Part shown: positions 2,982 through 29,950 of the stretch, in pieces
Layout: every line of letters begins with the position of its first letter
Position numbering within the stretch: the stretch's first letter is position 1
NCBI GenBank assembly: GCA_021199795.1
Contig: JAJQHJ010000013.1
Location: 62,001-126,000 of the forward strand
DNA length: 64,000 bases
Reading direction: 5' to 3'
Origin: Oscillospiraceae bacterium
Lineage (GTDB): Bacteria > Bacillota > Clostridia > Oscillospirales > Ruminococcaceae
Notes under the pieces: generated by a model
Databases searched by the model: none
What the model was told of the DNA's origin: nothing
Seen by the model: only the letters and a program-made list of their open reading frames with translations
Position numbers and translations under genes: made by a program

Positions 2982-5504
2982 GTGGAACAATATAACGTTA
3001 CCGGCATGAGTTGTGCGGCTTGCAGTGCCAGGGTTGAGAAAGCCGTTTCTAAGGTCGAGGGCGTCAGCTCCTGCTCGGTGAGCCTCTTAACCAACTCTAT
3101 GGGAGTTGAGGGGACGGCTTCGCCTGCCGACATAATCTCGGCTGTTGAGAATGCCGGATATGGAGCATCCCTCAAGGGTGCGGAAAAGGCGGCTTCGTCA
3201 GGTGCCGACGATGTCGACTCTCTCAAGGACACCGAAACGCCGAAATTAAAAAGAAGACTGATTGCGTCTCTCGGATTCTTAGTGGTGCTCTTGTACTTTT
3301 CGATGGGGCACATGATGTTCGGATTCCCGCTGCCGGGATTCTTCTCGGATAATCATGTCGCAATGGGGCTTGTTCAGCTGCTGCTGACTGTAGCCGTCAT
3401 GGTAATCAACCAGAAATTCTTCATAAGCGGATTCAAAGGGCTCATCCACCGTGCTCCGAATATGGACACTCTTGTGGCACTCGGTTCAAGTGCTGCGTTC
3501 GTCTACTCGACCTATGCCCTCTTCATGATGACCGACGCACAGCTAAAGGGCGACATGGAAGCGGTCATGAACTATATGAACGACTTCTATTTCGAGTCGG
3601 CGGCGATGATTCTCACGCTTATCACCGTTGGAAAGATGCTCGAGGCGAGGTCTAAGGGCAAGACGACCGACGCGCTCAAGGGGCTTATGAAGCTTGCGCC
3701 GAAAACGGCTACTATTCTGAAAGACGGTGTCGAAACCGAGGTTGCAATCTCTAAAGTGGGCGTTGGGGACATATTTGTTGTTCGCCCGGGAGAAAGTATC
3801 CCCGTGGACGGAGTCATCATCGAGGGAACAAGTGCCATAAACGAGTCGGCACTCACGGGTGAAAGCATCCCTGTGGACAAAGAGACAGGCGACGGAGTTT
3901 CAGCTGCAACCATCAACCAGTCCGGCTTCATAAAGTGCCGGGCAACAAGAGTTGGCGAGGACACAACCCTCTCCCAGATTATAAAGATGGTCAGCGATGC
4001 CGCCGCGACCAAGGCTCCTATCGCGAAAATTGCAGACAAAGTCTCGGGAATCTTCGTCCCGGCGGTCATAACTATCGCAGTCATCACTATTATAGTATGG
4101 CTACTTGTAGGGCAGACTTTCAGCTACGCCCTGGCAAGGGGAATCTCGGTCTTAGTCATCAGCTGCCCTTGCGCCTTGGGGCTGGCGACGCCGGTTGCAA
4201 TCATGGTTGGAAATGGTGTCGGCGCAAAGAACGGAATACTCTTCAAAACAGCTGAATCCCTTGAAGAGACCGGCAAGACCGAAACGGTCGTCCTCGACAA
4301 AACAGGAACCATCACAGCCGGTACTCCTGTGGTCACGGACATAATCCCGTGCGAGGGTGTTTCGGAAGACGAACTCATCAGGCTTGCTCTCTCGCTTGAA
4401 AAGGGCAGCGAACACCCGCTTGCAAAGGCTATCATGATCTATGGTGAGGAAAACAGTCTCTCTGGCTCCGATGTTCAGGACTTCCGGGCTCTTCCCGGAA
4501 ACGGGCTGACAGCTACTTTGGACGGCGAAACCCTCTATGGCGGAAGCTTCTCATTTATCGGAACGATTGCAAGTCTTCCCAAAGATGCCGAATCAACATT
4601 CACAAGGCTTGCAGGCGAGGGCAAGACTCCCCTGTTCTTCTCGAAATCCGACAAGCTTATTGGAATAATTGCGGTTGCAGACATCATCAAGCCGGACAGT
4701 GCAGAGGCTATAAATGAACTCAAGGGCATGGGAATCAGGGTTGTCATGCTCACAGGAGACAACGAGAGAACAGCCAACGCCATAGGCTCTCAGGCGGGAG
4801 TTGACGAGGTCATCGCGGGAGTTCTCCCCGACGGCAAGGAAAGCGTTATCAGACGTCTCAAGGAGTCAGGAAAAGTAGCCATGGTCGGCGACGGAATCAA
4901 CGACGCTCCGGCTCTGACACGAGCGGACATTGGAATTGCGATTGGAGCAGGTGCGGATGTTGCAGTGGATGCTGCCGACGTTGTCCTCATGAAGAGCAGT
5001 CTTATGGACGTTCCAGCGGCGATAAGGCTGAGCAGGTCGACACTACGAAACATCCACGAAAACCTCTTCTGGGCGTTCTTCTACAATGCAATCGGCATTC
5101 CCCTTGCGGCGGGAGCTTATATAAACCTCTTCGGCTGGGAATTAAACCCGATGTTTGCGGCGGCGGCGATGAGTCTTTCGAGCTTCTGCGTCGTTTCAAA
5201 TGCTTTAAGGCTCAATTTCGCCGACATAAGATCAAGTAAGCACGACAGAAAAGTCAGGCATAAAGACACTAGCAGAAAGAAGGTGAAAAGCATGAGCGTT
5301 ACAATGAATATTGAGGGCATGATGTGTGGTCACTGCGAGGCAAGAGTCAAGAAGACCCTTGAGGCAATCCCCGGAGTCGCCTCCGCAGAAGTAAGCCACA
5401 CCGCAGGAACTGCGGTTGTAACCCTGAATGCTCCCGTTGAGGACAGCGTTCTTAAGGAGGCTGTAGAGGCGCAGGATTACAAGGTTGTGGGAATATCAAG
5501 ATAA
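2982..5504 (+). CDS. copA: Copper-exporting P1B-type ATPase with C-terminal CopZ-like domain
   Basis: An 840-residue heavy-metal P-type ATPase that exports Cu(I) across the membrane. In order: an N-terminal HMA metal-binding domain (CAAC, residues 11-14), membrane helices, actuator TGES (292-295), the CPC metal site in the membrane (395-397), DKTGT with phospho-Asp D439, the GSEHPLA motif, TGDN, and GDGIND (636-641). After the last helices there is a Lys/Arg-rich linker and then a second HMA domain at the C-terminus (CGHC, 782-785), which is unusual. Translation starts at GTG 2982, with GAGGG just upstream overlapping the csoR stop. An internal ribosome binding site before ATG 5292 could release the last 70 residues as a free chaperone. 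Confidence 0.93.
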   Translation: MEQYNVTGMSCAACSARVEKAVSKVEGVSSCSVSLLTNSMGVEGTASPADIISAVENAGYGASLKGAEKAASSGADDVDSLKDTETPKLKRRLIASLGFLVVLLYFSMGHMMFGFPLPGFFSDNHVAMGLVQLLLTVAVMVINQKFFISGFKGLIHRAPNMDTLVALGSSAAFVYSTYALFMMTDAQLKGDMEAVMNYMNDFYFESAAMILTLITVGKMLEARSKGKTTDALKGLMKLAPKTATILKDGVETEVAISKVGVGDIFVVRPGESIPVDGVIIEGTSAINESALTGESIPVDKETGDGVSAATINQSGFIKCRATRVGEDTTLSQIIKMVSDAAATKAPIAKIADKVSGIFVPAVITIAVITIIVWLLVGQTFSYALARGISVLVISCPCALGLATPVAIMVGNGVGAKNGILFKTAESLEETGKTETVVLDKTGTITAGTPVVTDIIPCEGVSEDELIRLALSLEKGSEHPLAKAIMIYGEENSLSGSDVQDFRALPGNGLTATLDGETLYGGSFSFIGTIASLPKDAESTFTRLAGEGKTPLFFSKSDKLIGIIAVADIIKPDSAEAINELKGMGIRVVMLTGDNERTANAIGSQAGVDEVIAGVLPDGKESVIRRLKESGKVAMVGDGINDAPALTRADIGIAIGAGADVAVDAADVVLMKSSLMDVPAAIRLSRSTLRNIHENLFWAFFYNAIGIPLAAGAYINLFGWELNPMFAAAAMSLSSFCVVSNALRLNFADIRSSKHDRKVRHKDTSRKKVKSMSVTMNIEGMMCGHCEARVKKTLEAIPGVASAEVSHTAGTAVVTLNAPVEDSVLKEAVEAQDYKVVGISR
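5280..5294 (+). promoter_or_regulatory. Internal ribosome binding site and ATG for a CopZ-like product
   Basis: AAGGTG at 5280-5285 lies six bases before an in-frame ATG at 5292. The predicted product is 70 residues long, starts exactly at the HMA domain and has the length of ordinary CopZ copper chaperones. Confidence 0.5.
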
Positions 5505-5510
5505 GATGAG

Positions 5511-5545
5511 AGAATCCTCAGAAAGAAATTTCTGAGGATTCTTGA
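5511..5545 (+). terminator. Terminator of csoR-copA
   Basis: A 14-bp perfect stem (AGAATCCTCAGAAA and its complement) with a GAAA loop, seven bases after the copA stop. The U-tract is weak because the next promoter begins at once. Confidence 0.7.
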
Positions 5546-5570
5546 CATTTCACTCGAATAAAACTATACT
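5542..5570 (+). promoter_or_regulatory. Promoter of the hydrolase/ATP-grasp cluster
   Basis: TTGACA at 5542-5547 and TATACT at 5565-5570, spacer 17. The -35 box touches the copA terminator. Confidence 0.85.
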
Positions 5571-5605
5571 ATTATAAGCAACAAAATTTCAAAGGGGAAT
5601 TTGAT

Positions 5606-6358
5606 ATGGTAAAGGTTTGGAATGTTACGATTCCACAGTTGTCAGGGGATGCGACCAGGCGGGTCTATCTCTATCTTCCCGACTATTATGACGAGGACTC
5701 GCGAAGATACCCGGTTATGTACATGTTTGACGGGCACAATGTCTTCTTCGACAGCGACGCTACATACGGCAAATCCTGGGGCATGAACAGCTATATGAAC
5801 TGGACGAAAACGCCTCTTATTATAGTTGCAGTCGAGTGCAATCACGAGGGCGATTCGAGGCTGTCGGAGTACTCCCCTATCGACTTCGAGAATTCTACTC
5901 TCGGGAAAGTCCCGGGCAAGGGAAAAATCTATATGGACTGGCTCGTAGGAACGCTTAAGCCGGAGATTGACCGGGACTACCGGACACTTGCCGATAGGGA
6001 ACACACGCTTATCTGTGGCTCTTCCATGGGAGGGCTCATGTCGCTCTATGCGGCTGTGTGCTACAATAAGTACTTCCAGCGTGCTGCTTGCCTTTCACCG
6101 AGCCTCTGGATTGATCCGGGGAAAATACTCGAAATGATAGCGAAAGCAAATATCCGCAACGACACCTGCATCTACATGGACTATGGAAGCAAGGAGATTT
6201 TCAACCACTCGACGTCATCCGAGGCACTGATTTCCGTTTCGCATATGTTACTTACAAAGCGGGTCAATCTCACATTCAGAATAGTTCCGGGTGGAACGCA
6301 TAGTGAAGCAAGCTGGGAGCAGCAAATTCCGATATTTATGGAGTGTCTGGGACTATAG
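5606..6358 (+). CDS. Esterase-fold alpha/beta hydrolase
   Basis: A 250-residue protein of the putative esterase family (Pfam PF00756 type, related to esterase D and enterochelin esterase). The N-terminus has the RRVYLYLPDYY strand and the VMYMFDGHNVF segment. The nucleophile elbow is GSSMGG, with Ser140 as nucleophile, and a C-terminal GGTHSEASW supplies the expected catalytic His. No signal peptide, so cytoplasmic. AAAGGGGAA precedes the ATG. It is first in a cluster with another hydrolase and an ATP-grasp enzyme. The natural ester substrate is unknown. Confidence 0.82.
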   Translation: MVKVWNVTIPQLSGDATRRVYLYLPDYYDEDSRRYPVMYMFDGHNVFFDSDATYGKSWGMNSYMNWTKTPLIIVAVECNHEGDSRLSEYSPIDFENSTLGKVPGKGKIYMDWLVGTLKPEIDRDYRTLADREHTLICGSSMGGLMSLYAAVCYNKYFQRAACLSPSLWIDPGKILEMIAKANIRNDTCIYMDYGSKEIFNHSTSSEALISVSHMLLTKRVNLTFRIVPGGTHSEASWEQQIPIFMECLGL

Positions 6359-6364
6359 GAGGGA

Positions 6365-6418
6365 GAACCTCTCAGTCGCTTCGCGACAGCTCCCCTTATC
6401 AAGGGGAGCCATAACTGC
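6365..6418 (+). repeat. Dispersed two-hairpin repeat, copy 1
   Basis: Begins GAACCTCTCAGTC, then a hairpin with arms GTCGC/GCGAC, then the conserved hairpin AGCTCCCCTT / AAGGGGAGC and CCATAACTGC. Related copies lie at 30884, 35596 and 53983. This copy sits between two genes of a cluster, seven bases after the esterase stop. Confidence 0.8.
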
Positions 6419-6441
6419 AACATCAAAGGGAGTTGTTAACT

Positions 6442-7188
6442 ATGAATATTGAATACCATAAACATTATAGCAGTTACTTGCAGAGAGACATGGAGTTCAA
6501 AGTCTATGGTCACGCTGGGAAGCCGGTTATATTTATTCCTTGCCAGGGTGGACGGTTCTTTGATTTTGAGAACTTCGGGATGATTGATTACTGGGCTAAG
6601 TGGATCGATGAGGGACGGGTGACCGTCTACTCGGTCGATGTTGTCGACAATGAGACCTATGCCGCAAACGGCGACCCGAGAGACAGAATCGAGTGGCACG
6701 AGCACTGGTACAACTATATGATCGAGGAGCTTGTGCCGACAGTGAAGCACTTAAGCGGCTTGAAGAACGGCTATGACCAGCCCATCATGACTTTCGGCTG
6801 CTCTATGGGAGCGATGCACGCGGCAAACCTCTTCTTCAGGCGTCCTGACATATTCGACACAGTTTTCGCTATTTCGGGGCTCTATGACTCAAAGTTCTTC
6901 TTCGGCGACTATATGGACGACATTCTTTACCGCAACTCGCCGGTCAACTATCTTTCGGACATGCCCTCAGACCACCCCTACATTAAAATGTATAACGAGC
7001 GCAAGATTCTGATTGTAGTAGGACAAGGCGCATGGGAGGAGCCGCTACTTGCAAGCACACGTTGGCTTGACGACGTCATGAGGCGCAAAGGCATCAACGG
7101 AAGAGTTGAATACTGGGGCTATGATGTCGCCCATGACTGGTGCTGGTGGTATAAGATGGTGGAGACATACTTGCCTGAGTTGTTATAG
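6442..7188 (+). CDS. Second esterase-fold alpha/beta hydrolase
   Basis: About 248 residues. The nucleophile elbow is FGCSMGAMH, with Ser121; a His near the C-terminus (VAHDW) is the likely catalytic partner. The FIPCQGGRFFDFENF stretch after the first strands is typical of a sub-group of Firmicute esterase-like proteins. An upstream TTG (6433) exists, but AAAGGGAG at 6425-6432 fits ATG 6442, and the protein then starts MNIEYHKHYSS. No signal peptide. Distantly related to the preceding hydrolase and in the same cluster as an ATP-grasp enzyme. Substrate unknown. Confidence 0.8.
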   Translation: MNIEYHKHYSSYLQRDMEFKVYGHAGKPVIFIPCQGGRFFDFENFGMIDYWAKWIDEGRVTVYSVDVVDNETYAANGDPRDRIEWHEHWYNYMIEELVPTVKHLSGLKNGYDQPIMTFGCSMGAMHAANLFFRRPDIFDTVFAISGLYDSKFFFGDYMDDILYRNSPVNYLSDMPSDHPYIKMYNERKILIVVGQGAWEEPLLASTRWLDDVMRRKGINGRVEYWGYDVAHDWCWWYKMVETYLPELL

Positions 7189-7241
7189 AAAGGATATGAC
7201 TTAAAAAGCAAAACTTTATCTTTATTTCTCCTAACTTTCCG

Positions 7242-8402
7242 GTGACATACTGGAAATTCTGTGCGGAGCTTAAGAATAATGGGCTGAGAGTCTTAGGAAT
7301 CGGCGACTGCCCTTATGAGGAGCTTGACCAGCACTTAAGAGAGAGCCTCGATGAATACTACAAGGTCTCGACTCTTGAGAACTACGACGAGGTGTTCAAG
7401 GCGGTTGCTTTCTTCACCTATAAGTACGGCAAGATCGACTGGCTGGAATCGAATAACGAGTACTGGCTTGAAAGGGATGCTCACCTGAGAACCGAGTTCA
7501 ACATCACTTCCGGCTTCAAGGACGACGATATCGATCACGTCAAGTACAAGTCCCTCATGAAAGAGTACTACAAAAAAGCCGGCGTCCCGACTGCGAGGTA
7601 CCACGTTATCTCCGGTATCGACGACGCAAGGGAGTTCATCGACACTGTTGGATATCCCGTCATCGTCAAGCCGGACAACGGAGTCGGAGCAAGCCATACT
7701 TACAGACTTAGCAATGATAACGAGCTTGAGTTCTTCTTTGAGCATAAAGACGACGAAACCTACATCATGGAGGAGTTCGTCAACGGCTATGTAAGGACAT
7801 ACGACGCCATCATCGACCAGAACGGCGAGCCCATCTTCGAGTCGGGCAACGTCACTCCTGAATCGCTCATGGACGTGGTCAACGAGGCTAGAAACACTAT
7901 CTACTACATCGTCCCCCAGCTTCCGGATGAGCTTATAGACATTGGTAGACGCACCGTCAAGGCTTTCGGCGTCAAGGCAAGGTTCATCCACCTTGAATAC
8001 TTCGTTCTGAATGCCGACCAGGACGGCTTGGGAAAGAAAGGTGACATCGTCGGCTTGGAGGTCAACATGCGTCCATCCGGCGGCTACACCCCCGACATGT
8101 ATGACTATGCCTATGAAACCGACGTCTACAAGCTCTGGGCGGATATGATTGCTTTCAACAAGCCGTCCTCAGACCCTTATAAGGTTCGCAAGTTCTGTGC
8201 TTTCTGCGGCAGACGCGACGGCATGGAGTTCAACCTCAACCATGAAGCCATCATGGCAAAATACGGTCCCAACATGAGAATGTGGGGAAGAATCCCTGAC
8301 GCCCTGGCAGATGCAATGTCAAATCAGATGTACACCGCCGTTTTCGACACCGAGGAAGAAATGAACAGATTCTTCTCTGATTTACTCACGCTTAAAGATT
8401 AA
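7242..8402 (+). CDS. ATP-grasp superfamily enzyme (start codon apparently lost)
   Basis: An ATP-grasp ligase-like protein, 386 residues from the first usable start, GTG 7242. The pre-ATP-grasp Rossmann-like domain is followed by the ATP-binding core (VIVKPDNGVGASHTYRL, then EEFVNGY) and the metal-binding strand GLEVNMRPSGG. These enzymes join a carboxylate to an amine or thiol using ATP. Upstream of 7242 the frame stays open to a stop at 7197-7199 and encodes what looks like the missing first beta-strand (QNFIFISPNFP), but no ATG, GTG or TTG is present. GTG 7242 also lacks a good ribosome binding site. The gene may therefore carry a one-base frameshift at its start. Partner substrates are unknown. 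Confidence 0.8.
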   Translation: MTYWKFCAELKNNGLRVLGIGDCPYEELDQHLRESLDEYYKVSTLENYDEVFKAVAFFTYKYGKIDWLESNNEYWLERDAHLRTEFNITSGFKDDDIDHVKYKSLMKEYYKKAGVPTARYHVISGIDDAREFIDTVGYPVIVKPDNGVGASHTYRLSNDNELEFFFEHKDDETYIMEEFVNGYVRTYDAIIDQNGEPIFESGNVTPESLMDVVNEARNTIYYIVPQLPDELIDIGRRTVKAFGVKARFIHLEYFVLNADQDGLGKKGDIVGLEVNMRPSGGYTPDMYDYAYETDVYKLWADMIAFNKPSSDPYKVRKFCAFCGRRDGMEFNLNHEAIMAKYGPNMRMWGRIPDALADAMSNQMYTAVFDTEEEMNRFFSDLLTLKD

Positions 8403-19450: not shown

Positions 19451-19475
19451 TATATAGGTGAAAGGGTGTGATCGC

Positions 19476-20042
19476 TTGGATGACAACATGATTATTGATT
19501 TATACTGGTCTCGTTCTGAATCAGCTATCGACGAGACGGACAAAAAGTATGGTGGGTATCTCAAGACTGTCGCCTACAACATTCTCTGTAATCGTGAAGA
19601 CGCCGGTGAGGCGGTCAACGATACATACTTGAAAGCCTGGGACAGTATGCCTCCGCAGAGACCGAATATCTTATCTGCATTCCTGGCGAAAATCACCCGT
19701 CACGTTTCTCTCAACATGAGAAGAGCCAATGTGGCTGAGAAGCGCGGCGGAGGAGAGATTGACCTTGTCCTGGACGAGCTCTCCGAAAGTCTCCCGTCCG
19801 GAAGCTCAGTTGAGCAGGAGATAGATGCGAAGTCCCTTACCGAGACCTTAAACAAGTTCTTAGGTTCGCTGAAGCAGTCGGAAAGGGACATGTTCCTAAG
19901 GCGTTACTGGTATATGGATTCAATAAAGGACATCGCCACGATGTTCGGGTGCGGGGAAAGTAAAGTAAAGACGACTCTTTATCGGCTCAGGAAGAAGCTT
20001 ATAGATGAATTGGGGGTGGACTATAATGACTACCGCCATTAG
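19476..20042 (+). CDS. ECF-type RNA polymerase sigma factor
   Basis: About 188 residues. Region 2 contains LKTVAYNILCNREDAGEAVNDTYL and the -10 recognition stretch; region 4 is a helix-turn-helix (SIKDIATMFGCGESKVKTTLYRLRKKL) that would read the -35 element. TTG 19476 is favoured because AAAGGGTG precedes it at normal distance; ATG 19488 and GTG 19458 are alternatives. Its 3' end overlaps the next gene by 17 bases, so sigma factor and membrane protein are translationally coupled, as is usual for ECF sigma/anti-sigma pairs. The stimulus is unknown. Confidence 0.88.
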   Translation: MDDNMIIDLYWSRSESAIDETDKKYGGYLKTVAYNILCNREDAGEAVNDTYLKAWDSMPPQRPNILSAFLAKITRHVSLNMRRANVAEKRGGGEIDLVLDELSESLPSGSSVEQEIDAKSLTETLNKFLGSLKQSERDMFLRRYWYMDSIKDIATMFGCGESKVKTTLYRLRKKLIDELGVDYNDYRH

Positions 20043-21273
20043 TATCATAAATGCCCTCGGCGACATCAAGGACGAATACATAGTCCACGCCATGAACCCG
20101 AACCACAAGAGAGTTGTGAACGTAAGAAGAGTGCTGATTGCGGCGGTGATTATAGTGCTGGCGACAGTATGCGCCCTTACCGTAACCTCCGACAGCTTTC
20201 ACGATCTTTTCTATCAGTCTCCGACAAACGACGCCGTTGAATCAGCTTTGAATATTATTGAAAATCAGATTGACAAGGATTACGCAATAACAGTTGAAGT
20301 TTACGGCGGTATGGTTGACGAAGAGGAAACTGAGAGGATTCTTTCTCTCGAAAGCTGGGGAGAAATAATCGAGGAGCGTGGATGGACTACCGACACTTTT
20401 GCCATTGTGTATATGGAGTACTATGTCGAATATAATCACGATTTATCGCCTTACGACGATGGTTATACGGCAGCATGGTTCTGGATGGAAAAGGTCGAAT
20501 CGTCAGGCGAATGGCTCTACTATGACAGCATGAACGGTATCGCATTCCGTGGCATCTTTGAACCGAATGGTCACAGTCACTGGACAAAGGACGACGTTGC
20601 CGCCTACAATGCCGCAACTGAATATCTCGAAGAAAACTTCGCCGAGGTTGAGATTTTCGGGTACAAGTTTGACTATTCCAAGGCTCTCGAGGTTATCAGA
20701 AATTATCCCGAGCTTGCTGAAGAGCGTGACTGGCATTTGACGCAGATTCCGACTTACGACTACACTTTCTATGTTGTCTATGCCGAATACTGCGCCGATG
20801 ACGAATACTCGGCATTATGGCTCTGGTTGGAGAAGGATGAGGACACCGGCGAGTGGTCTTGCTATAAGGCTGATACCGGCATGGAGTTTGAGTATGTGTA
20901 TGTAGATAGAGGAGCTCAGCCGGAGCAGGACGAAAGAGCTTTGGAGGCAGCACTTGAAGCTATTGAAGCGTTAGCTGAAGACGAAAACATTGAAAGCGTC
21001 GAGATATACGGCTCAAAGGTCGACAGCGACCAGACGCGGCTTACTCTCATTGACGATTCCAATCCCATTGCCGAAGAGCGTGGCTGGAGCCAGTCTGGCA
21101 AGACCTTCTATATCATCTATGCTGAGTACAACATCACATACTCCGACGGCTCAGGCGAGGACATAATAGCCTCCGTCTGGATGGAAAGAGACACAGAAAC
21201 CAACGAGTGGTCGTGCTACTCCATGACCGACATCACGGCAACCAAATCGAGGTTTTTGTATAAACCGGTATAA
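20026..21273 (+). CDS. Membrane-anchored triple-repeat protein, probable anti-sigma factor
   Basis: A 415-residue single-pass protein. A short cytoplasmic tail contains INALGDIKDEYIVHA, a motif type common in proteins encoded next to ECF sigma factors in Clostridia. A membrane helix follows at about 35-54, and then ~360 extracytoplasmic residues made of three copies of one ~100-residue repeat (about 72-178, 192-293, 303-412). Each copy has an IxxYG strand, a (E)ERGW turn, a VVYAEY strand and a WxWMEKDxxTGEW end. ATG 20026 has GGGGGTGG six bases upstream. No family name is recognised for the repeat. The anti-sigma role is inferred from coupling and topology. Confidence 0.7.
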   Translation: MTTAISIINALGDIKDEYIVHAMNPNHKRVVNVRRVLIAAVIIVLATVCALTVTSDSFHDLFYQSPTNDAVESALNIIENQIDKDYAITVEVYGGMVDEEETERILSLESWGEIIEERGWTTDTFAIVYMEYYVEYNHDLSPYDDGYTAAWFWMEKVESSGEWLYYDSMNGIAFRGIFEPNGHSHWTKDDVAAYNAATEYLEENFAEVEIFGYKFDYSKALEVIRNYPELAEERDWHLTQIPTYDYTFYVVYAEYCADDEYSALWLWLEKDEDTGEWSCYKADTGMEFEYVYVDRGAQPEQDERALEAALEAIEALAEDENIESVEIYGSKVDSDQTRLTLIDDSNPIAEERGWSQSGKTFYIIYAEYNITYSDGSGEDIIASVWMERDTETNEWSCYSMTDITATKSRFLYKPV

Positions 21274-21289
21274 GTAACCAGGAGTAAAC

Positions 21290-22570
21290 ATGGATTCAAG
21301 AGAACTGTCTATAAGCATCTTGGATGCTCTTAACGACATTGATGACAAGTATATAGCCCATGCCGGGCAGGTGAAGCCAAGGCGGATGGTGAGTCTGAGA
21401 TCTGTACTCATCGCCGCTGTGGTTGCCATGCTCGCGGTTGTCTCTGCTATAGCGGTTTATTCAAGTAAATCCTACTCATATGACAGATATCAGGATCCGA
21501 CTGACGACCCGGTTGAATCGGTTCTGAACCTGATTGAGAGAAAGAACTTTAACAACCCTGTGATACAGTTCGAGATTTATGGTGCCGCAATTGACGAGGA
21601 GGAGACGGCGAGGGTTCTCTCGGAAGAAACTGAGCTTGTCAAAGAACAGGAATGGAATGAAGACAACTTTGTCGTCGTCTATGCGGAGTATTACCAGATC
21701 TTCTACAAGGTGTCTTCAGCGGATGATGACGGCTATCAGGCTGACCGGTTCTGGATGGAGTATGACCCTGTGAATGACATCTGGGTGCTCTATGACAACA
21801 GTGAGATCGGCGACTACAGCCCCGGATATCTCGGGATCTTTGACGAGACAGGCGTCGGGCATGAGGGCTGGTGCAAGGATGATGTCGACTCATATAACGT
21901 GGCAATGGCTTATCTTGAGGGGCTCGCCTCGAAGGACTACGTAAACAGCATAGAAATTCTCGGCTGCGAAAGCGACGATGAAAAGATTGATTCGGTGATG
22001 AGCTCAAACTACACGCTGGAGAATGTGCGCGGCTGGTACAACTACTATGCCATCAGAGTCTATAACTTCACCGTTTATTATACGGAATATTATGTTGACT
22101 ACGATGAGAGTTTAACCGACCTTGAAGACGGCTACTATGCCATGTGGCTCTGGATGGAAAAGGATGAAAACACTGGGGTATGGAGCTGCTACTACGCCGA
22201 CACCGACCAGCCGTTTGAGTATATATTCATCAGCTATTCAGAGATAGAAAGCGATGGCACACAGCCGGACGAGAATGCAATAAACGCGGCGACAAGCTGG
22301 CTTGAGGAAACCTACGGCTCCGAAATTACAATCTACGGCGCAGAAGTAGACTATGACCAGACAAGAACTGTCCTCCGCTTCAACAGCTTCACCGTCTATC
22401 TCCGCGGCTGGAACCTTGGAGCAGACAAGAACTTCCTGGTTGTCTATGCCGAATATAGTCTTGACGGCGTGGACAAGGCTATGTATATCTGGGTTGAGAA
22501 GAACGAAGAGACTGAGGAGTGGAGCTATTACTTCTCGGTGGAGACGCATCCGGGAGGTTTATACGCTTAG
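21290..22570 (+). CDS. Paralogous membrane-anchored triple-repeat protein
   Basis: A 426-residue paralogue of the preceding gene, 16 bases downstream. The cytoplasmic tail contains LDALNDIDDKYIAHA and the membrane helix is at about 38-56. The outer part again holds three copies of the IxxYG / RGW / VVYAEY / WMEKDxxTGxW repeat (about 75-185, 200-300, 310-420). The repeats are rich in Tyr, Trp, Asp and Glu. Two anchored receptors behind one sigma factor suggest two sensors or a hetero-oligomeric anti-sigma complex. Function inferred; no homologous named domain recognised. Confidence 0.68.
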   Translation: MDSRELSISILDALNDIDDKYIAHAGQVKPRRMVSLRSVLIAAVVAMLAVVSAIAVYSSKSYSYDRYQDPTDDPVESVLNLIERKNFNNPVIQFEIYGAAIDEEETARVLSEETELVKEQEWNEDNFVVVYAEYYQIFYKVSSADDDGYQADRFWMEYDPVNDIWVLYDNSEIGDYSPGYLGIFDETGVGHEGWCKDDVDSYNVAMAYLEGLASKDYVNSIEILGCESDDEKIDSVMSSNYTLENVRGWYNYYAIRVYNFTVYYTEYYVDYDESLTDLEDGYYAMWLWMEKDENTGVWSCYYADTDQPFEYIFISYSEIESDGTQPDENAINAATSWLEETYGSEITIYGAEVDYDQTRTVLRFNSFTVYLRGWNLGADKNFLVVYAEYSLDGVDKAMYIWVEKNEETEEWSYYFSVETHPGGLYA

Positions 22571-22863: not shown

Positions 22864-22893
22864 ACAAACCCGCAATTTTGCGGGTTTTGTTTT
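22864..22893 (+). terminator. Rho-independent terminator upstream of rlmB
   Basis: AAACCCGCA and TGCGGGTTT arms around a short loop, then TGTTTTATT. It is almost 300 bases after the last gene, so it may end a small RNA or a long 3' UTR. Confidence 0.75.
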
Positions 22894-23930: not shown

Positions 23931-23972
23931 TACTCACTGATTTTAGATACAATAAATTTTCCGGAGGTCAAA

Positions 23973-26516
23973 ATGTCTGATAAAAATTACTCTGTCGATG
24001 ATATACTCGAAGAATACTCGCATAAAACAGTCGGAAAGACAACCGAAAGCAAAGCTTCAGAGGATAGCTTTGACCTCGATGCTATCCTGAACGGCGTATC
24101 TAAGCCGGCTGCAACGCAGAAAACCGAGGTTATCGAGGACGTACTGGAGGTCGGCGACAACAGCTTTGTTTTCGACCCGGCAACTCTCGATGAGGTTGTA
24201 GCTTCCACCGAGGCTCCCAAGCCGCGATATTCAGCTCCTGTGCTTTCAGAATCGACAGCCGAGATTATCGCCAGGAATTCGGGTGAGGATCTCTCTGACG
24301 ACCTGGATATCCGCCATGGAAGCGAAACCGTCAAGGGCACAGTCGAAATGGAAAGGATTCTTGAGCATGAGGAGCCTGCTCCCCAGCCGGAACCGGAACC
24401 TGCACCGGAGCCTGAGCCTGAGCCTATGCCAAAGCAGACAGCTAAGAAGTCCTCATCAAGCGAGCCGGAGATTCATCCGGTAACCGGTCAGAATGCCGAC
24501 GAAATGATAATGCAGGATCTCCTGAAGCTCAAGAAAGAGCGCGGTGCTCCGAAGCCAAAGAGGCAGAATGTCGACCCTGTCAACCGTGCATCTATTGAAG
24601 ATATAGACCTCGGGATGGACAAGAAGATTATCCCTAACACAGAGGTCGGTCTTGACGAGAACGCCACCGAGGAGGAGCGTCTTGCATATCTCAACGCCAA
24701 GCGTCGCGAAAGAGTCAAGCAGTTTATAGCCGAATCGGAGGAAGAGGAAAAGCCCGATAAGAAGTCGGTTGAGGACTTCGAGAGCTTCGACCAGGCAGGA
24801 GCTATGGCAAAGAGCATATCTTCACTCAAGTCAAGCCTTGTTGTGAGAATGTGTGCACTTGTAATCACCTCCCTGCTTTCAGTATACATAACGATTGCAA
24901 CCGACATGGGGCTTTCACTTATATCGATCCTCACCCAGGCTACTTCATATGTGTTTGCAAACGTTATTCTGGGGCTTATCGCCTGCTTCGTTTCCTACAC
25001 TGTAATATCCGTCGGGCTCAAGAAGCTCTTCACCATGAAAGCGGACAGCGACAGCCTCGCGGCAATTTCGATGATATTCAGCCTGATTTCAGGCGTGGCA
25101 CTCTTAGCAGATGCACAGGTTGTCGAAATGAAGCTTGCAAACGTGTATATCAGCGTTTCAATCGTCGGGCTTCTTATCAACACCATAGGAAAACTTCTTA
25201 TAGTCACGAGAACCGAGCGCAATTTCCGTTACATTTCCGGCGGATATTCAAAATACGCCGCCATGCATATTGACGACGAGGATGTCGCAAGCAAGTTCAC
25301 TAAGGGTGCTTTAACCGACTTCCCGTCCCTTTCCACATCACGCAAGACTGAATTTGTCACAGACTTCATCAAGAATAGCTACTCTGCCGACCTGACCGAC
25401 TCGTTCTGCAAGATTTACGTCCCGATTGTGACTGTGATTTCAGTCATAGTTGGAGTCATCACAGCGTTCCTTTATCCGGTTTCCATCACCGACACAGCGG
25501 GTAGAATCTATTATGCACTCTCCTGCGCCGCAGGGTCGATGGCACTTTGCTCTGCGATGGGAATGATGCTCGTTACGAATATTCCCCTTGCCAAGGGCTC
25601 AAAGAAATATCTCCAGTCGTCGGCTGTGATGCTGGGCTACTCTGCTGTCGACAAGTTCGCCGACACCAACTCTGTTCTTATCGACGCTGTTGACCTCTTC
25701 CCCGACGGAATGGTCGAGATTGTGAACATAAAGCCGGTTCGTAAGACTCCTATTGAGGACGGCATTCTCTATGCCGCTTCCCTCTGCTGCCAGACTGAAA
25801 GCATTCTTCGCCCTGCATTCTACAAGACCATCAAGGGCAAGACAGAAATGCTCTATCCGGTTGAGAGCTACATCTATGAGGACGGCTTGGGGCTTTCCGG
25901 CTGGATTGAAAATCAGCGCGTCCTCTTTGGAAACAGAACGCTTATGGAAAGCCACTCTATAGAGGGTCTCCCGACTCCTGAGAAAGAGGCTTCCTACGCC
26001 AAGGGCGACAACATTGTCTATCTCTCAATAGGCGGAGCTCTTGCGATGATATATGTTGTGAAGCTAAAGGCTTCCCTTTCAGTCTCAAAGGCTTTAAAAG
26101 ACCTCGACAAGCAGGGCATAACGGTTATTCTCCGCTCAGTGGATTCGCTCTTAAGCATCACCAGGCTTTCGGAGCTCTTCGGAGTGAAGCCGACGATATT
26201 CAAGCTTCTGCCATTCAGGTATCATTCAGACTACGATGCACAGACCTCTTACGTGGCGTCGATGTCATCACCGATGATCTATTCGGGAAGATTCTCATCG
26301 CTGGCAATGCTCCTCTGTGGCACCAAGCGGCTCCAACGCTCAGCGGCAGTAGGCGTCACAATCCAGGCTCTTGCATCAATCTTAGGCATAATCCTGGCAG
26401 TCATATTTGCAATAGTAGGCTCGTTCGGAGGCACCTTGACGGCGACTGTAGTCTTAGTCTACAATCTAATATGGACTCTGGTCACCGCAATTGTACAATC
26501 AATATCGAGAACATAA
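23973..26516 (+). CDS. P-type-ATPase-like membrane protein lacking catalytic motifs
   Basis: An 847-residue protein with two halves. Residues 1-290 are cytoplasmic, acidic and low in complexity, with a Pro-Glu tract near 130-150. The rest resembles a P1B ATPase: about four helices from residue 291, a much reduced actuator region, two more helices, a soluble P/N-domain-like region, and terminal helices. Around residue 571, NSVLIDAVDLFPDG aligns without gaps with ETVVLDKTGTITAG of CopA at 2982. The Asp is kept but KTGT is lost. TGDN is SVDS (722-725), and GDGxND and CPC are absent. CCGGAGGT precedes the ATG. Catalytically dead by prediction; a regulatory or scaffold role is possible. Confidence 0.75.
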   Translation: MSDKNYSVDDILEEYSHKTVGKTTESKASEDSFDLDAILNGVSKPAATQKTEVIEDVLEVGDNSFVFDPATLDEVVASTEAPKPRYSAPVLSESTAEIIARNSGEDLSDDLDIRHGSETVKGTVEMERILEHEEPAPQPEPEPAPEPEPEPMPKQTAKKSSSSEPEIHPVTGQNADEMIMQDLLKLKKERGAPKPKRQNVDPVNRASIEDIDLGMDKKIIPNTEVGLDENATEEERLAYLNAKRRERVKQFIAESEEEEKPDKKSVEDFESFDQAGAMAKSISSLKSSLVVRMCALVITSLLSVYITIATDMGLSLISILTQATSYVFANVILGLIACFVSYTVISVGLKKLFTMKADSDSLAAISMIFSLISGVALLADAQVVEMKLANVYISVSIVGLLINTIGKLLIVTRTERNFRYISGGYSKYAAMHIDDEDVASKFTKGALTDFPSLSTSRKTEFVTDFIKNSYSADLTDSFCKIYVPIVTVISVIVGVITAFLYPVSITDTAGRIYYALSCAAGSMALCSAMGMMLVTNIPLAKGSKKYLQSSAVMLGYSAVDKFADTNSVLIDAVDLFPDGMVEIVNIKPVRKTPIEDGILYAASLCCQTESILRPAFYKTIKGKTEMLYPVESYIYEDGLGLSGWIENQRVLFGNRTLMESHSIEGLPTPEKEASYAKGDNIVYLSIGGALAMIYVVKLKASLSVSKALKDLDKQGITVILRSVDSLLSITRLSELFGVKPTIFKLLPFRYHSDYDAQTSYVASMSSPMIYSGRFSSLAMLLCGTKRLQRSAAVGVTIQALASILGIILAVIFAIVGSFGGTLTATVVLVYNLIWTLVTAIVQSISRT

Positions 26517-26521
26517 ACCTC

Positions 26522-26556
26522 ATCTGTCTCACACATTTGTGGGACAGATTTTTTTC
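26522..26556 (+). terminator. Terminator of the P-type-ATPase-like gene
   Basis: A 12-bp stem (ATCTGTCTCACA with TGTGGGACAGAT, one T-G pair) followed by seven T, five bases after the stop. Confidence 0.88.
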
Positions 26557-26629: not shown

Positions 26630-27994
26630 ATGAAGAAACTTTTATCAATAGCTTTAGCTTTAACAATGCTTTTATCCCTCACCGCGTGCGGTTCTCGGGA
26701 GGATGAGCCGGAGGTAACTACTGAATCCACAGTTGCCAGCCAGGATTCGGAAGTCACTACCTCCGCAACTGAAGAGGAAATTGAAACTGAGAATATCATC
26801 GTCGAAAAGGTAGACATTGTTGCGGTGTTTGAGGGAGTTTACTCCTACACCGAGAGAAATTTCGATACCAAGAGCTACGAATCGAACGGCGGAACCGGAT
26901 ATACCCTCGAAAACGACCAGTATGTCGACATCTATGAGTACGATTCCGAGGAAGCCGCCGCACAAGCCGCTTCTCAGTTTGACGCCGGAGGAACCACATT
27001 TTATGGCAGTGACGACAGTATTACGGAATATGAATATGTCTACCCCGTCCATTTCTGGCTGAATGGCTCTAACATCATCTTCTACTGCTCCGAAACGGGA
27101 GAGTTCCTGCAGGACTTCAACGCTCTTTTGGGCACTGAATTTGCAGGTTCCGGGAGCGACTACTTCCGACCGACCTATGTAAACGAGCTGGTTTACGCGC
27201 TCTGGGACGCAGGCTATAACGTCGACTATAAGTATTCCTCCGGAACCGGTCAGGACTATCTCAAGGAAACCGTCAGCACATGTATGCTTCTGGTCTCAAA
27301 CGACGAGGTTATCTATCTCTGGGAGTATGCCAACGAATATGAGGCTATTGACGAGGCTTCAAGATATTCCGCGAATGCCAGCTTCTATTCAGGCGAAAGT
27401 TCCACCATCGCTATCGACTACGCCAGCCCGGTTCACTTCTTCATACTTGACAACATTATTGTCCAGTACTGCTCAAGCTCAGGCGAGCTTCTTGACGCCA
27501 TTTCCTCGGTCTATGGTTACCAGTTCGCCGGCGTTGATTACGACTATGACGGCGAGAAGCCCTGGTATGTCACCGGCACGGTGGATTATGATTACTACAC
27601 CGTTCCCGCCGCAGACGACGGTGGATTGTCAGTCTTCCCGCAATATGTCGTGATCCGTTCTCAGAGCCAGCTTGAGGATGTCCGCGAAAGCCTGAACCTG
27701 ACAATTGCCGACAACGTCGACACCACATGGGGTCTTCTGACGGCGAAATATACCGACGATTGGTTCAACGAGAATGACCTGATTCTCCTGCTTTTAGAAG
27801 AGCCGAGCGGCAGCATCAACCCCTACGTCACCGACGTCACGAGGGACGAGGACAGGAACTATACTATCAGTATCAATGACGACTACCCCGAGGTTGCCAC
27901 CGCTGATATGGCATATTGGTATGTCCTGGTCGAGATTGACGGGATAAAAGTCAACCCGAACGCGAGGGTGGAGGTTGTGTCGAGTAGGGAGTAA
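26630..27994 (+). CDS. Lipoprotein with two tandem repeat domains
   Basis: A 454-residue secreted lipoprotein. The signal peptide ends in the lipobox LTAC (Cys20), followed by a Thr/Glu-rich linker. Two related domains of ~110 residues follow (about 65-165 and 175-300). Each has a Y(D/L)xxEY stretch, a PVHFxxxxxxIxxYCSxxGE segment and a closing FAG. The last ~120 residues form a different domain ending at RVEVVSS. The ATG has AAAGGAG upstream. It stands alone, with a terminator before it. No specific function recognised. Confidence 0.75.
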   Translation: MKKLLSIALALTMLLSLTACGSREDEPEVTTESTVASQDSEVTTSATEEEIETENIIVEKVDIVAVFEGVYSYTERNFDTKSYESNGGTGYTLENDQYVDIYEYDSEEAAAQAASQFDAGGTTFYGSDDSITEYEYVYPVHFWLNGSNIIFYCSETGEFLQDFNALLGTEFAGSGSDYFRPTYVNELVYALWDAGYNVDYKYSSGTGQDYLKETVSTCMLLVSNDEVIYLWEYANEYEAIDEASRYSANASFYSGESSTIAIDYASPVHFFILDNIIVQYCSSSGELLDAISSVYGYQFAGVDYDYDGEKPWYVTGTVDYDYYTVPAADDGGLSVFPQYVVIRSQSQLEDVRESLNLTIADNVDTTWGLLTAKYTDDWFNENDLILLLLEEPSGSINPYVTDVTRDEDRNYTISINDDYPEVATADMAYWYVLVEIDGIKVNPNARVEVVSSRE

Positions 27995-28080: not shown

Positions 28081-28926
28081 ATGAATATCATAGACGCGAT
28101 AATAAACCTAGCCAACCACCCCATTATACATCTTGTTCATGACTATCAAGGTAGAAACAGAGCAAATAACGCAGGTGACGCGCTAGAGGAATATACAAAA
28201 GATTTATTTGCGGGAATCTTTGACTTGCCGGAAGCAGAAAGACTTGAAAAAATTAATCAGGTATTTTCTTATCTAGGAAACAATTCAAATCCTCCTGATG
28301 CGATGCTCCGTGGCGGCGATGCAATTGAGGTAAAGAAAATCGAGTCAGAGGGCGCGGCACTCGCTCTGAATAGCAGTTATCCAAAACATACTATTCTTTC
28401 TTCAAGCCCTATGATTTCAAGTGCATGTAAGGCAGCGGAGGCATGGGCAGAAAAAGACATCATATACACCGTTGGCGTTGTGGACAAGCATACAAACGAC
28501 TTAAAACGCCTTTGTATGGTGTACGGTCTCGATTATTGTGCGTCTGATGAATGCTATAGCAGAATTAAGACAACAATAAAGAATGGTGTTGAGGCAATTC
28601 CGGGAATTGAGTTTGCGGAAAGTCGTGAACTAGGTCATATTAACAAAGTTGACCCACTCGGAATTACATATATGCGGGTTCGCGGTATGTGGGGAATTGA
28701 TAACCCCTGGAATGTATTCAGCTATATTTACACCAGAAACTCATCTTATACTTTTGATTTCATGTGTATTATAAATAGCTCCAAATGGGGATCTCTCGAT
28801 AATACCGATGAATTGATTGCGCTTGCAAACAATAATGCGTCGTTGAAAATAACTGATGTCAGGATTAAAAATCCGGATAATCCTGCACAGCTTCGGGACG
28901 CTAAGCTTATTACTTTCGGATTGTAA
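28081..28926 (+). CDS. NgoPII-family type II restriction endonuclease (predicted GGCC)
   Basis: A 281-residue protein matching the NgoPII restriction endonuclease family, which cuts GGCC. The PD-(D/E)xK site is visible as PPD (D73), then D80 and E83-V-K85 in the segment [12 protein letters not shown]. The gene is more AT-rich than its neighbours and is followed after 13 bases by a cytosine methyltransferase gene, so it is a compact type II system, probably acquired horizontally. All catalytic residues are present, so it is predicted active. Specificity is inferred from family, partner and near-absence of GGCC in the window. Confidence 0.85.
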
Positions 28927-28939
28927 GAGGTATTTCAGC

Positions 28940-29950
28940 ATGAATGTGATTAGCTTATTCAGTGGTTGCGGTGGTTTGGACTTGGGCTTTGAAAAAGCCG
29001 GGTTTTCCATTCCTGTTGCCAATGAATATGACCCTACAATATATGAAACCTTTAAAGTCAATCATGTAAATACTCATCTTATCGAGAGTGATATAAGACA
29101 AATTACAAAAAAGGATATTGAGCCGTATATACTTGGCGACGTTGACGGTATAATAGGCGGTCCTCCCTGTCAATCCTGGTCAGAAGCAGGTGCTTTGAGA
29201 GGAATTGAAGATGCCAGAGGGCAACTGTTCTTTGATTATATCAGGATACTGAAAGAGTTCATGCCTAAATTCTTTTTGGCAGAAAATGTGAGCGGAATGC
29301 TTGCTGACAGGCACAATGAAGCGGTTCATAACATATTGAGGCTCTTCGATGAAGCCGGCTATAACGTTTCCCTTACTCTGGTCAACGCCAAAGATTATGG
29401 AGTCGCGCAAGAACGAAAAAGAGTTTTCTATATCGGATTCAGAAAGGATTTGGACATAAAGTTCACGTTTCCAAAGGGGTCTACCGAAAAAGAATGTGAT
29501 AAAATCACACTTCGGGATACCATCTGGGACTTACAGGAAACAGCTGTCCCTGCGCTTAAAAATAATCGGCATAATCCCATGGCAATCAACAGTAATGAAT
29601 ATTTTGTCGGTGCTTACTCCCCTATCTTTATGAGCAGAAACAGGGTGAAATCCTGGGATGAACAGGCGTTTACTGTCCAGGCTTCCGGCAGGCAGTGTCA
29701 ACTCCACCCACAGGCTCCGAAAATGGTGAAATACGGAAAAGACGATTGTCGCTTCGTACCAGGCAAAGAAAATCTTTACAGACGAATGACTATCAGAGAG
29801 ATCGCCCGCGTGCAAGGTTTTCCAGATTCGTTTCAATTCATCTACAGCGAAACAAACAACGCATATAAAATGATTGGCAATGCTGTTCCTGTAAATCTGG
29901 CGTTTGAAGTTGCTACAGCAATAGGACAAGCATTGTCACAGGGTGCATAA
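28940..29950 (+). CDS. DNA (cytosine-5-)-methyltransferase, partner of the NgoPII-type enzyme
   Basis: A 336-residue C5 cytosine methyltransferase. Motif I is [11 protein letters not shown] (residues 7-17), motif IV is GGPPCQSW with catalytic Cys77, motif VI is ENV (115-117), motif VIII is [11 protein letters not shown], and motifs IX-X are [14 protein letters not shown] and [11 protein letters not shown]. The target recognition region lies between VIII and IX. ATG 28940 is chosen (AAGAGGT upstream); longer in-frame extensions overlap the nuclease gene and lack the conserved start. It protects host DNA against the endonuclease encoded just upstream. GGCC is the expected target. Confidence 0.92.

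Follow-up and report, generated by a model that had tools for sequence, protein, structure and literature searches.

The stretch of DNA analysed here, hereafter the window, comprises 64,000 nucleotides of the forward strand of contig JAJQHJ010000013.1 (positions 62,001 to 126,000; assembly GCA_021199795.1) from an Oscillospiraceae bacterium. It contains, at the place given in the initial annotation, an intact gene free of internal stop codons for a membrane protein related to P1B-type ATPases and referred to below as the pseudo-ATPase (Table 1). The rlmB gene, whose product has a charged N-terminal stretch of disordered look as judged by eye, ends 42 bp upstream of the start codon, in agreement with the earlier remark that the two genes adjoin. 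Because terminator-like hairpins bracket the pair, rlmB and the pseudo-ATPase gene look like a two-gene operon in the window; the scan found 5 terminator-like sites as compared to 4.1 expected by chance, and hence the two bracketing hairpins are backed by position and stem quality alone.

Table 1. Features of the rlmB/pseudo-ATPase locus (coordinates in the window, residue numbers of the pseudo-ATPase).
Feature	Position	Strand	Remarks
Terminator-like hairpin, 5' of rlmB	22866..22887	+	9-pair stem, then T-rich tail; consensus match only
rlmB, SpoU-family rRNA 2'-O-methyltransferase, 287 aa	23067..23930	+	SpoU_methylase 6e-43, SpoU_sub_bind 2.2e-17
GGAGG ribosome-binding site (sequence)	23963..23967	+	5 bp 5' of pseudo-ATPase ATG
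Pseudo-P1B-ATPase gene	23973..26516	+	ATG 23973, stop 26516, 847 aa, internal stops 0
Acidic Pro/Glu-rich cytoplasmic tail, residues 1-284	23973..24824	+	Mostly disordered (model): pLDDT <50 at 14-176, 187-225
Short motif YSVDDILEE, residues 6-14	23988..24014	+	Predicted helix 8-17, low pLDDT; I11 in 26/37, E14 in 27/37
First membrane block (MA, MB, M1, M2 equivalents)	24825..25247	+	Conserved G-xxx-L-F-T-x-K-xxx-DS loop
About 48 residues replacing actuator (A) domain, between M2 and M3	25245..25388	+	Without TGES loop
M3-M4 block	25392..25616	+	Metal-site CPC replaced by S-A-M
Former phosphorylation site, DAVDLFPDG, residues 571-579	25683..25709	+	Family consensus near [DE][LIVF]FPxG
N domain, residues 580-698	25710..26066	+	Fold retained, as are G653 and the second Gly of GxG; no SEHP His
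TGDN replaced by SVDS	26136..26147	+	Asp 724 kept
Last membrane pair (M5-M6 equivalents)	26292..26510	+	Preceding GDGxND segment deleted
Terminator-like hairpin, directly 3' of pseudo-ATPase stop	26522..26549	+	12-bp stem, T6; consensus match only

On the 3' side of the second hairpin, 26630-27994 (+) encodes a 454-aa protein, a lipoprotein by eye and without Pfam or NCBIfam match, whose cluster is present in 18 of the 49 loci compared, all close relatives of the window. At 28081-29950 (+), ahead of a gene that by eye is smpB, stand a 281-aa protein without assignment and a DNA cytosine methyltransferase, and since the methyltransferase and the 281-aa protein occur in 3/49 loci each, a restriction-modification insertion is likely at this position. 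On the 5' side of rlmB, 19458-22570 (+) holds a gene for an ECF-type sigma factor and, after it, a tandem pair of genes for related proteins, one of 422 aa without Pfam match and one of 426 aa without NCBIfam match, which are possibly its sensor or anti-sigma partners.

The likeness to P-type ATPases claimed at the outset was recovered by several searches. CopA of PDB entry 3rfu was matched by phmmer (E 2.2e-16) over residues 472-747, the NCBIfam CopA model matched at 9.9e-15 with 53.8 bits, where the cut-off is 1316, the profile of the family matched 3rfu at 1.8e-36, and profile comparison with the CopA encoded in the window itself (2982-5504) gave 99.3% and 4.5e-20. BLASTP between these two window proteins gives no significant match (best E 0.52; relevant segment 8.6), hence the claim of similarity needs profiles. 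In the fold search the structure model of the pseudo-ATPase, with a mean pLDDT of 63, matched P1B-ATPases, the rmsd between model and pumps being high (8.5-9.3 Å). No match above the curated Pfam and NCBIfam cut-offs was obtained for the window protein, and a Pfam scan of 35 family members returned two weak matches, in one member each, the best (E 0.0031) to a HAD hydrolase. With significant profile similarity and the overall fold both present, the pseudo-ATPase is a P1B-ATPase by ancestry and fold, while its membership of the enzyme family fails on five motifs. Profile and fold searches thus find P1B-ATPases, which supports its reading as a pseudo-ATPase and refutes an absence of P-type similarity.

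Losses were counted in an alignment of 35 family members with three working pumps, reduced from a first alignment of 39 members by removal of the near copies L019, L023 and L024 and of the broken L073. D571 of the window protein aligns without gaps with the phosphorylated Asp of CopA, and KTGT is replaced by AVDL, exactly as first noticed. An Asp at this aligned position is present in only 13 of the 35 members (seven rows of the genus of the window and six others) and an Asp lies one position later in 17 of the 35, so that retention of the phosphorylation Asp, as initially described, is correct for the window protein and does not extend to the whole family. The Lys of DKTGT is found in none of the 35 members, nor is the DKTGT string, and its Gly has become Asp or Glu in 30/35, giving the new conserved pattern listed in Table 1. 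Where GDGxND would stand, 35/35 members have a gap, and the string is found in none; the Ser of TGES occurs in 0/35 (33 have a gap there) and the TGES string in none; the first Cys of CPC is kept in 1/35, the second in 0/35 and the string in no member, its Pro being kept in 21/35 but absent from the window protein; and the SEHP His is missing from all 35, the window protein reading T-E-S-I. The conversion of TGDN to SVDS and the disappearance of GDGxND (deleted stretch), CPC (now S-A-M) and TGES, all previously pointed out, are therefore borne out. The accompanying statement that every catalytic signature has been lost is slightly too strong, given the 13 members with the aligned Asp and the TGD Asp (D724 in the window protein), which is kept in 34/35 members. 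D724 and the N domain, where the equivalent of G640 is present in 34/35 members and G653 is invariant (39/39), are the best-kept parts of the family, and most of the columns with order-wide conservation belong to the cytoplasmic P/N part, fewer to the membrane part. Since these pocket Gly residues and Asp 724 are kept, nucleotide binding by the N domain may remain conceivable.

The cytoplasmic extension, initially put at about 290 residues, measures 284 aa in the window protein and is indeed acidic and rich in Pro and Glu, with 65 D/E, 35 K/R and 22 P. A tail of 112 to 611 residues is found in 38/39 members (L068 appears to lack it); D/E exceed K/R in 35 of these 38 tails and three are not acidic. 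A Pfam scan of eight long-tailed members detected no fused domain above cut-off, nor was one found in the window protein. At the very N-terminus, a helix motif near [FY]S[VLI][DE][DE]IL.E can be made out in many distant members, while others have it in degenerate form. A search of 59 genomes of the order with a strict DNA pattern for this motif gave 19 matches, as compared to 2 with a reversed-pattern control; 13 fall in the N-terminus of the pseudo-ATPase (13/59 genomes) and six elsewhere, in what by eye resemble EF-Ts, a UbiB-like kinase, a MazG-like protein, a FapA-like protein, a small antitoxin-like protein and a short ORF. When residues 1-46 were searched against the genome of the window, the pseudo-ATPase gene was the only match, and there was no sign of the motif as a tag common to other proteins, in a test that is weak because the motif is so short.

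Gene neighbourhoods were compared at 49 loci, 19 of which, the window included, come from one genus, and 31 of which are spread through the order. On the same strand, rlmB lies upstream of the pseudo-ATPase gene in 47/49 loci (44 by clustering, and L063, L071 and L078 by tblastn) and in 29 of the 31 spread loci; it was not found upstream in L051 and L074, and in L054 the adjoining copy is a fragment beside undetermined bases. Orthologues carry the same losses and, in these 47 loci, the same neighbour, which speaks against a single decayed copy. No gene call separates the two genes except in L052 (an overlapping opposite-strand ORF) and L037 (the gene's own split first part), and the gap between them has a median of 29 bp with naive start calls, and 34 of the 41 gaps measured do not exceed 60 bp. 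Next in frequency comes an EF-G-like gene, which matches elongation factor G at 3e-268 and whose cluster is found in the flanks of 9/31 loci; the neighbours annotated beyond rlmB, a part of all neighbours, form a mixed set (Lon, Era, EF-G-like, DapB, UPRTase, SpoIID, FtsW, chemoreceptor and others), and no pathway can be read from them. rlmB has been retained while most other neighbours were reshuffled. The EF-G-like gene lies downstream of the pseudo-ATPase gene in L049, L050, L054, L057, L062, L066, L069 and L071, with a small ORF between the two in L054, while in the ninth locus, L055, it is situated further off. In L051, from the family of the window, a gene of the FtsW/RodA/SpoVE type (4037-5587) occupies the place of rlmB, 32 bp upstream of the pseudo-ATPase gene (5620-7764). 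A mirror-tree comparison of RlmB and the pseudo-ATPase over 23 loci gave r 0.55, with 0/2000 permutations as high, a value in keeping with common vertical descent that is no demonstration of an interaction. The rlmB linkage suggests a connection with the ribosome; common transcription of the two genes, itself a proposal, would not prove a common pathway.

Among the genomes sampled, the family is confined to, and nearly universal in, a single order, which is probably the Oscillospirales of GTDB. At 1e-50 its profile finds one match each in 184 of 197 genomes of the order and in 150 of the 155 good ones. Within a draw from the class, in which four candidates were scored per genome, a match at 1e-98 or better that spans nearly the whole protein was found in 12/12 genomes, namely the own genome and those of the same family or order, and the best match among 279 genomes of other orders is 1.2e-38, over the common P/N region; in a draw from the phylum, matches at 1e-50 were obtained in 3/3 genomes of the order and in 0/296 others, the latter overlapping partly with the class-draw genomes. 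BLAST with the pseudo-ATPase matched 58/60 relatives, some of these matches being working pumps: among the matches retrieved, DKTGT occurs in no family member, and L077 and L080 are canonical. Named relatives include Oscillospiraceae, Ruminococcus, uncultured Clostridia and Candidatus Faeciplasma. Five of the 13 order genomes without a match at 1e-50 are good genomes. One of these, G348, carries the motif-bearing N-terminus of a family member near a contig end; G380, G405, G418 and G447 yielded at 1e-3, in a search of eight of the 13 apparent absences, only matches resembling working P1B pumps, and their absences are either losses or assembly gaps.

In a phylogenetic tree, 35 members and 20 canonical rows are split on one branch with 100/100 support, seven family members standing on long branches; the canonical rows are all from genomes of the same order and include two identical pairs, three loci without the DKTGT/GDGxND frame having been dropped. 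This separation on one branch fits a single origin, most simply in the ancestor of the one order. Whole-protein dN/dS is 0.054-0.079 in the six nearest of 11 comparisons, indicating purifying selection, with 0.015-0.043 for the P/N part and 0.066-0.129 for residues 20-260, ratios which are rough because dS in these six pairs is 1.0 to 1.5; residues 1-18 give noisy values of 0.05 to 0.60, the stretch being too short to judge. Of the remaining five pairs, four have saturated whole-gene dS and one gives 0.115. Ratios of 0.05-0.08, together with presence across the order, indicate that the pseudo-ATPase is kept for some function, and since the catalytic parts are lost this function is unlikely to be P-type catalysis. 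The reading frame is broken in three relatives, L011/L037 (split in the tail), L057 (one in-frame TGA) and L073 (split in the N/P region), breaks that may be real or sequence errors.

Among characterized proteins, CopA (PDB 3rfu, 4bbj) is the best match in sequence and fold, sharing the order of membrane helices and the P and N domains. The pseudo-ATPase differs from it in lacking the DKTGT Lys, GDGxND, TGES, CPC and the SEHP His, in having the actuator domain cut to about 48 residues, and in bearing a long disordered tail instead. Human TMEM94/ERMA, an ER protein, likewise combines a P-type fold with altered catalytic motifs, but it is eukaryotic, with ten membrane helices, and its catalytic sites read DKQGI and GSSANL (PMC13322241). 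Compared by published descriptions, the bacterial family has lost more than TMEM94, and its best match is the P1B branch. Two reports on the human protein disagree: one describes an A-like domain without TGES and no detected ATPase activity (PMC12134183), and the other an uptake of Mg2+ driven by ATP for which the Asp is required, although DKQGI stands at the place of DKTGT and GSSANL at that of GDGVND (PMC13322241). PfGC-beta, of the apicomplexan guanylate cyclase/P4-ATPase fusions, carries an ATPase domain that lacks most signatures (PMC6592433), but it is fused to a cyclase (the P4 type is that of its relative), whereas no fused domain was detected in the pseudo-ATPase. Among the titles and abstract openings of the open-licence PMC literature, no description of a bacterial pseudo-P-type ATPase was found, and the family is described here as a bacterial pseudo-P1B-ATPase family. 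As for its neighbour, the gene next to rlmB in the corresponding cluster of Bacilli is orf1, not a membrane pseudo-ATPase, and we take its product to be a YacP/Rae1-type protein. That cluster, cysS-rnc-rlmB-orf1-sigH (PMC8046335), resembles the window in having a conserved gene after rlmB.

On balance we favour, with somewhat better than even confidence, a true pseudoenzyme of the P1B-ATPase fold that now acts as a membrane-embedded scaffold or sensor with a partner-docking tail and is made together with RlmB. The body of a copper pump, with its membrane helices and P and N domains, has been retained, while the parts serving phosphorylation, dephosphorylation and metal binding are gone, and we infer that the protein lacks ATPase and transport activity. 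The regulatory or scaffolding role initially suggested is likewise a proposal. The folded P/N head and the long flexible, usually acidic tail would reach into the cytoplasm, where the N-terminal helix would dock a cytosolic partner, and the protein would probably be produced with RlmB from a two-gene transcript.

Several other explanations were weighed against this scaffold or sensor. It is unlikely, if less so than most, that the protein is a passive membrane protein (a channel, lipid scramblase or lipid-binding protein) using the membrane path of the old pump without ATP; both the model and the profile alignment show its membrane segments kept as helices, and cryo-EM work on human TMEM94 describes a lipid within the P-type membrane domain, ATPase activity being absent (PMC12134183), but conservation lies mostly in the cytoplasmic P/N part and less in the membrane. 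A regulatory subunit pairing with working CopA or another P1B-ATPase, as a pseudoenzyme-enzyme pair, is improbable: canonical CopA is present in the window and further P-type-like matches occur in 12/12 of the own, same-family and same-order genomes (2-4 each at 1e-5, not checked singly), but rlmB is the sole neighbour recurring through most of the order and no metal gene is found among the annotated part of the neighbours. To our knowledge, no such regulatory pseudoenzyme partner exists for P-type pumps. Slightly more improbable still is a pump of unconventional chemistry, which is what one group holds human ERMA/TMEM94 to be (PMC13322241); the Asp of the window protein, those shifted by one position in 17/35 members, the TGD Asp, the fold and the N-domain Gly residues would all suit such a pump, but the aligned Asp is missing in 22/35 and the Lys in 35/35 members, GDGxND is deleted in 35/35, and TGES and CPC are found in no member.

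An anchor of the division ring, in which the N-terminal peptide and long linker would do the work of FtsA in holding FtsZ at the membrane, has very little probability. FtsA exceeds the curated cut-off in 0/25 genomes of the order, the own genome included, and the FtsW/RodA/SpoVE-family gene directly upstream in L051 could be taken in the same sense, but FtsA above cut-off is also missing in 111/148 class-draw genomes (some with weaker FtsA-like matches), and the FtsZ anchor SepF occurs in the genome of the window and in 58/60 of those drawn; because of this the lack of FtsA is not specific and the anchor idea is weakened. A decaying gene, which the lost catalytic motifs and the three broken frames might suggest, can scarcely be entertained and is refuted as a general explanation by the low dN/dS, the single-copy distribution in 184/197 genomes, the single branch and the conserved rlmB linkage.

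Going beyond the favoured scaffold or sensor, one may speculate, at long odds, that the pseudo-ATPase is an order-wide core membrane protein and a bacterial counterpart of TMEM94, in which a dead copper pump has become a platform that links the membrane, by way of RlmB or the 50S subunit, with the ribosome or with ribosome maturation; the N-terminal helix would be its docking peptide, and the N domain may still sense a nucleotide. The linkage to rlmB provides a starting point in the search for the partner of the pseudo-ATPase, and the gene, whose product in the window is covered by no Pfam or NCBIfam model, is a possible marker of the order. For the dispute over TMEM94/ERMA, the family provides a clean bacterial test case, since with its catalytic parts deleted any activity found could not be classical. 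P-type ATPases are usually presented as a family whose function is the catalytic cycle; a fold kept in 184/197 genomes of an order under selection, with the parts of this cycle removed, shows that in bacteria the P-type fold can be retained for another purpose.
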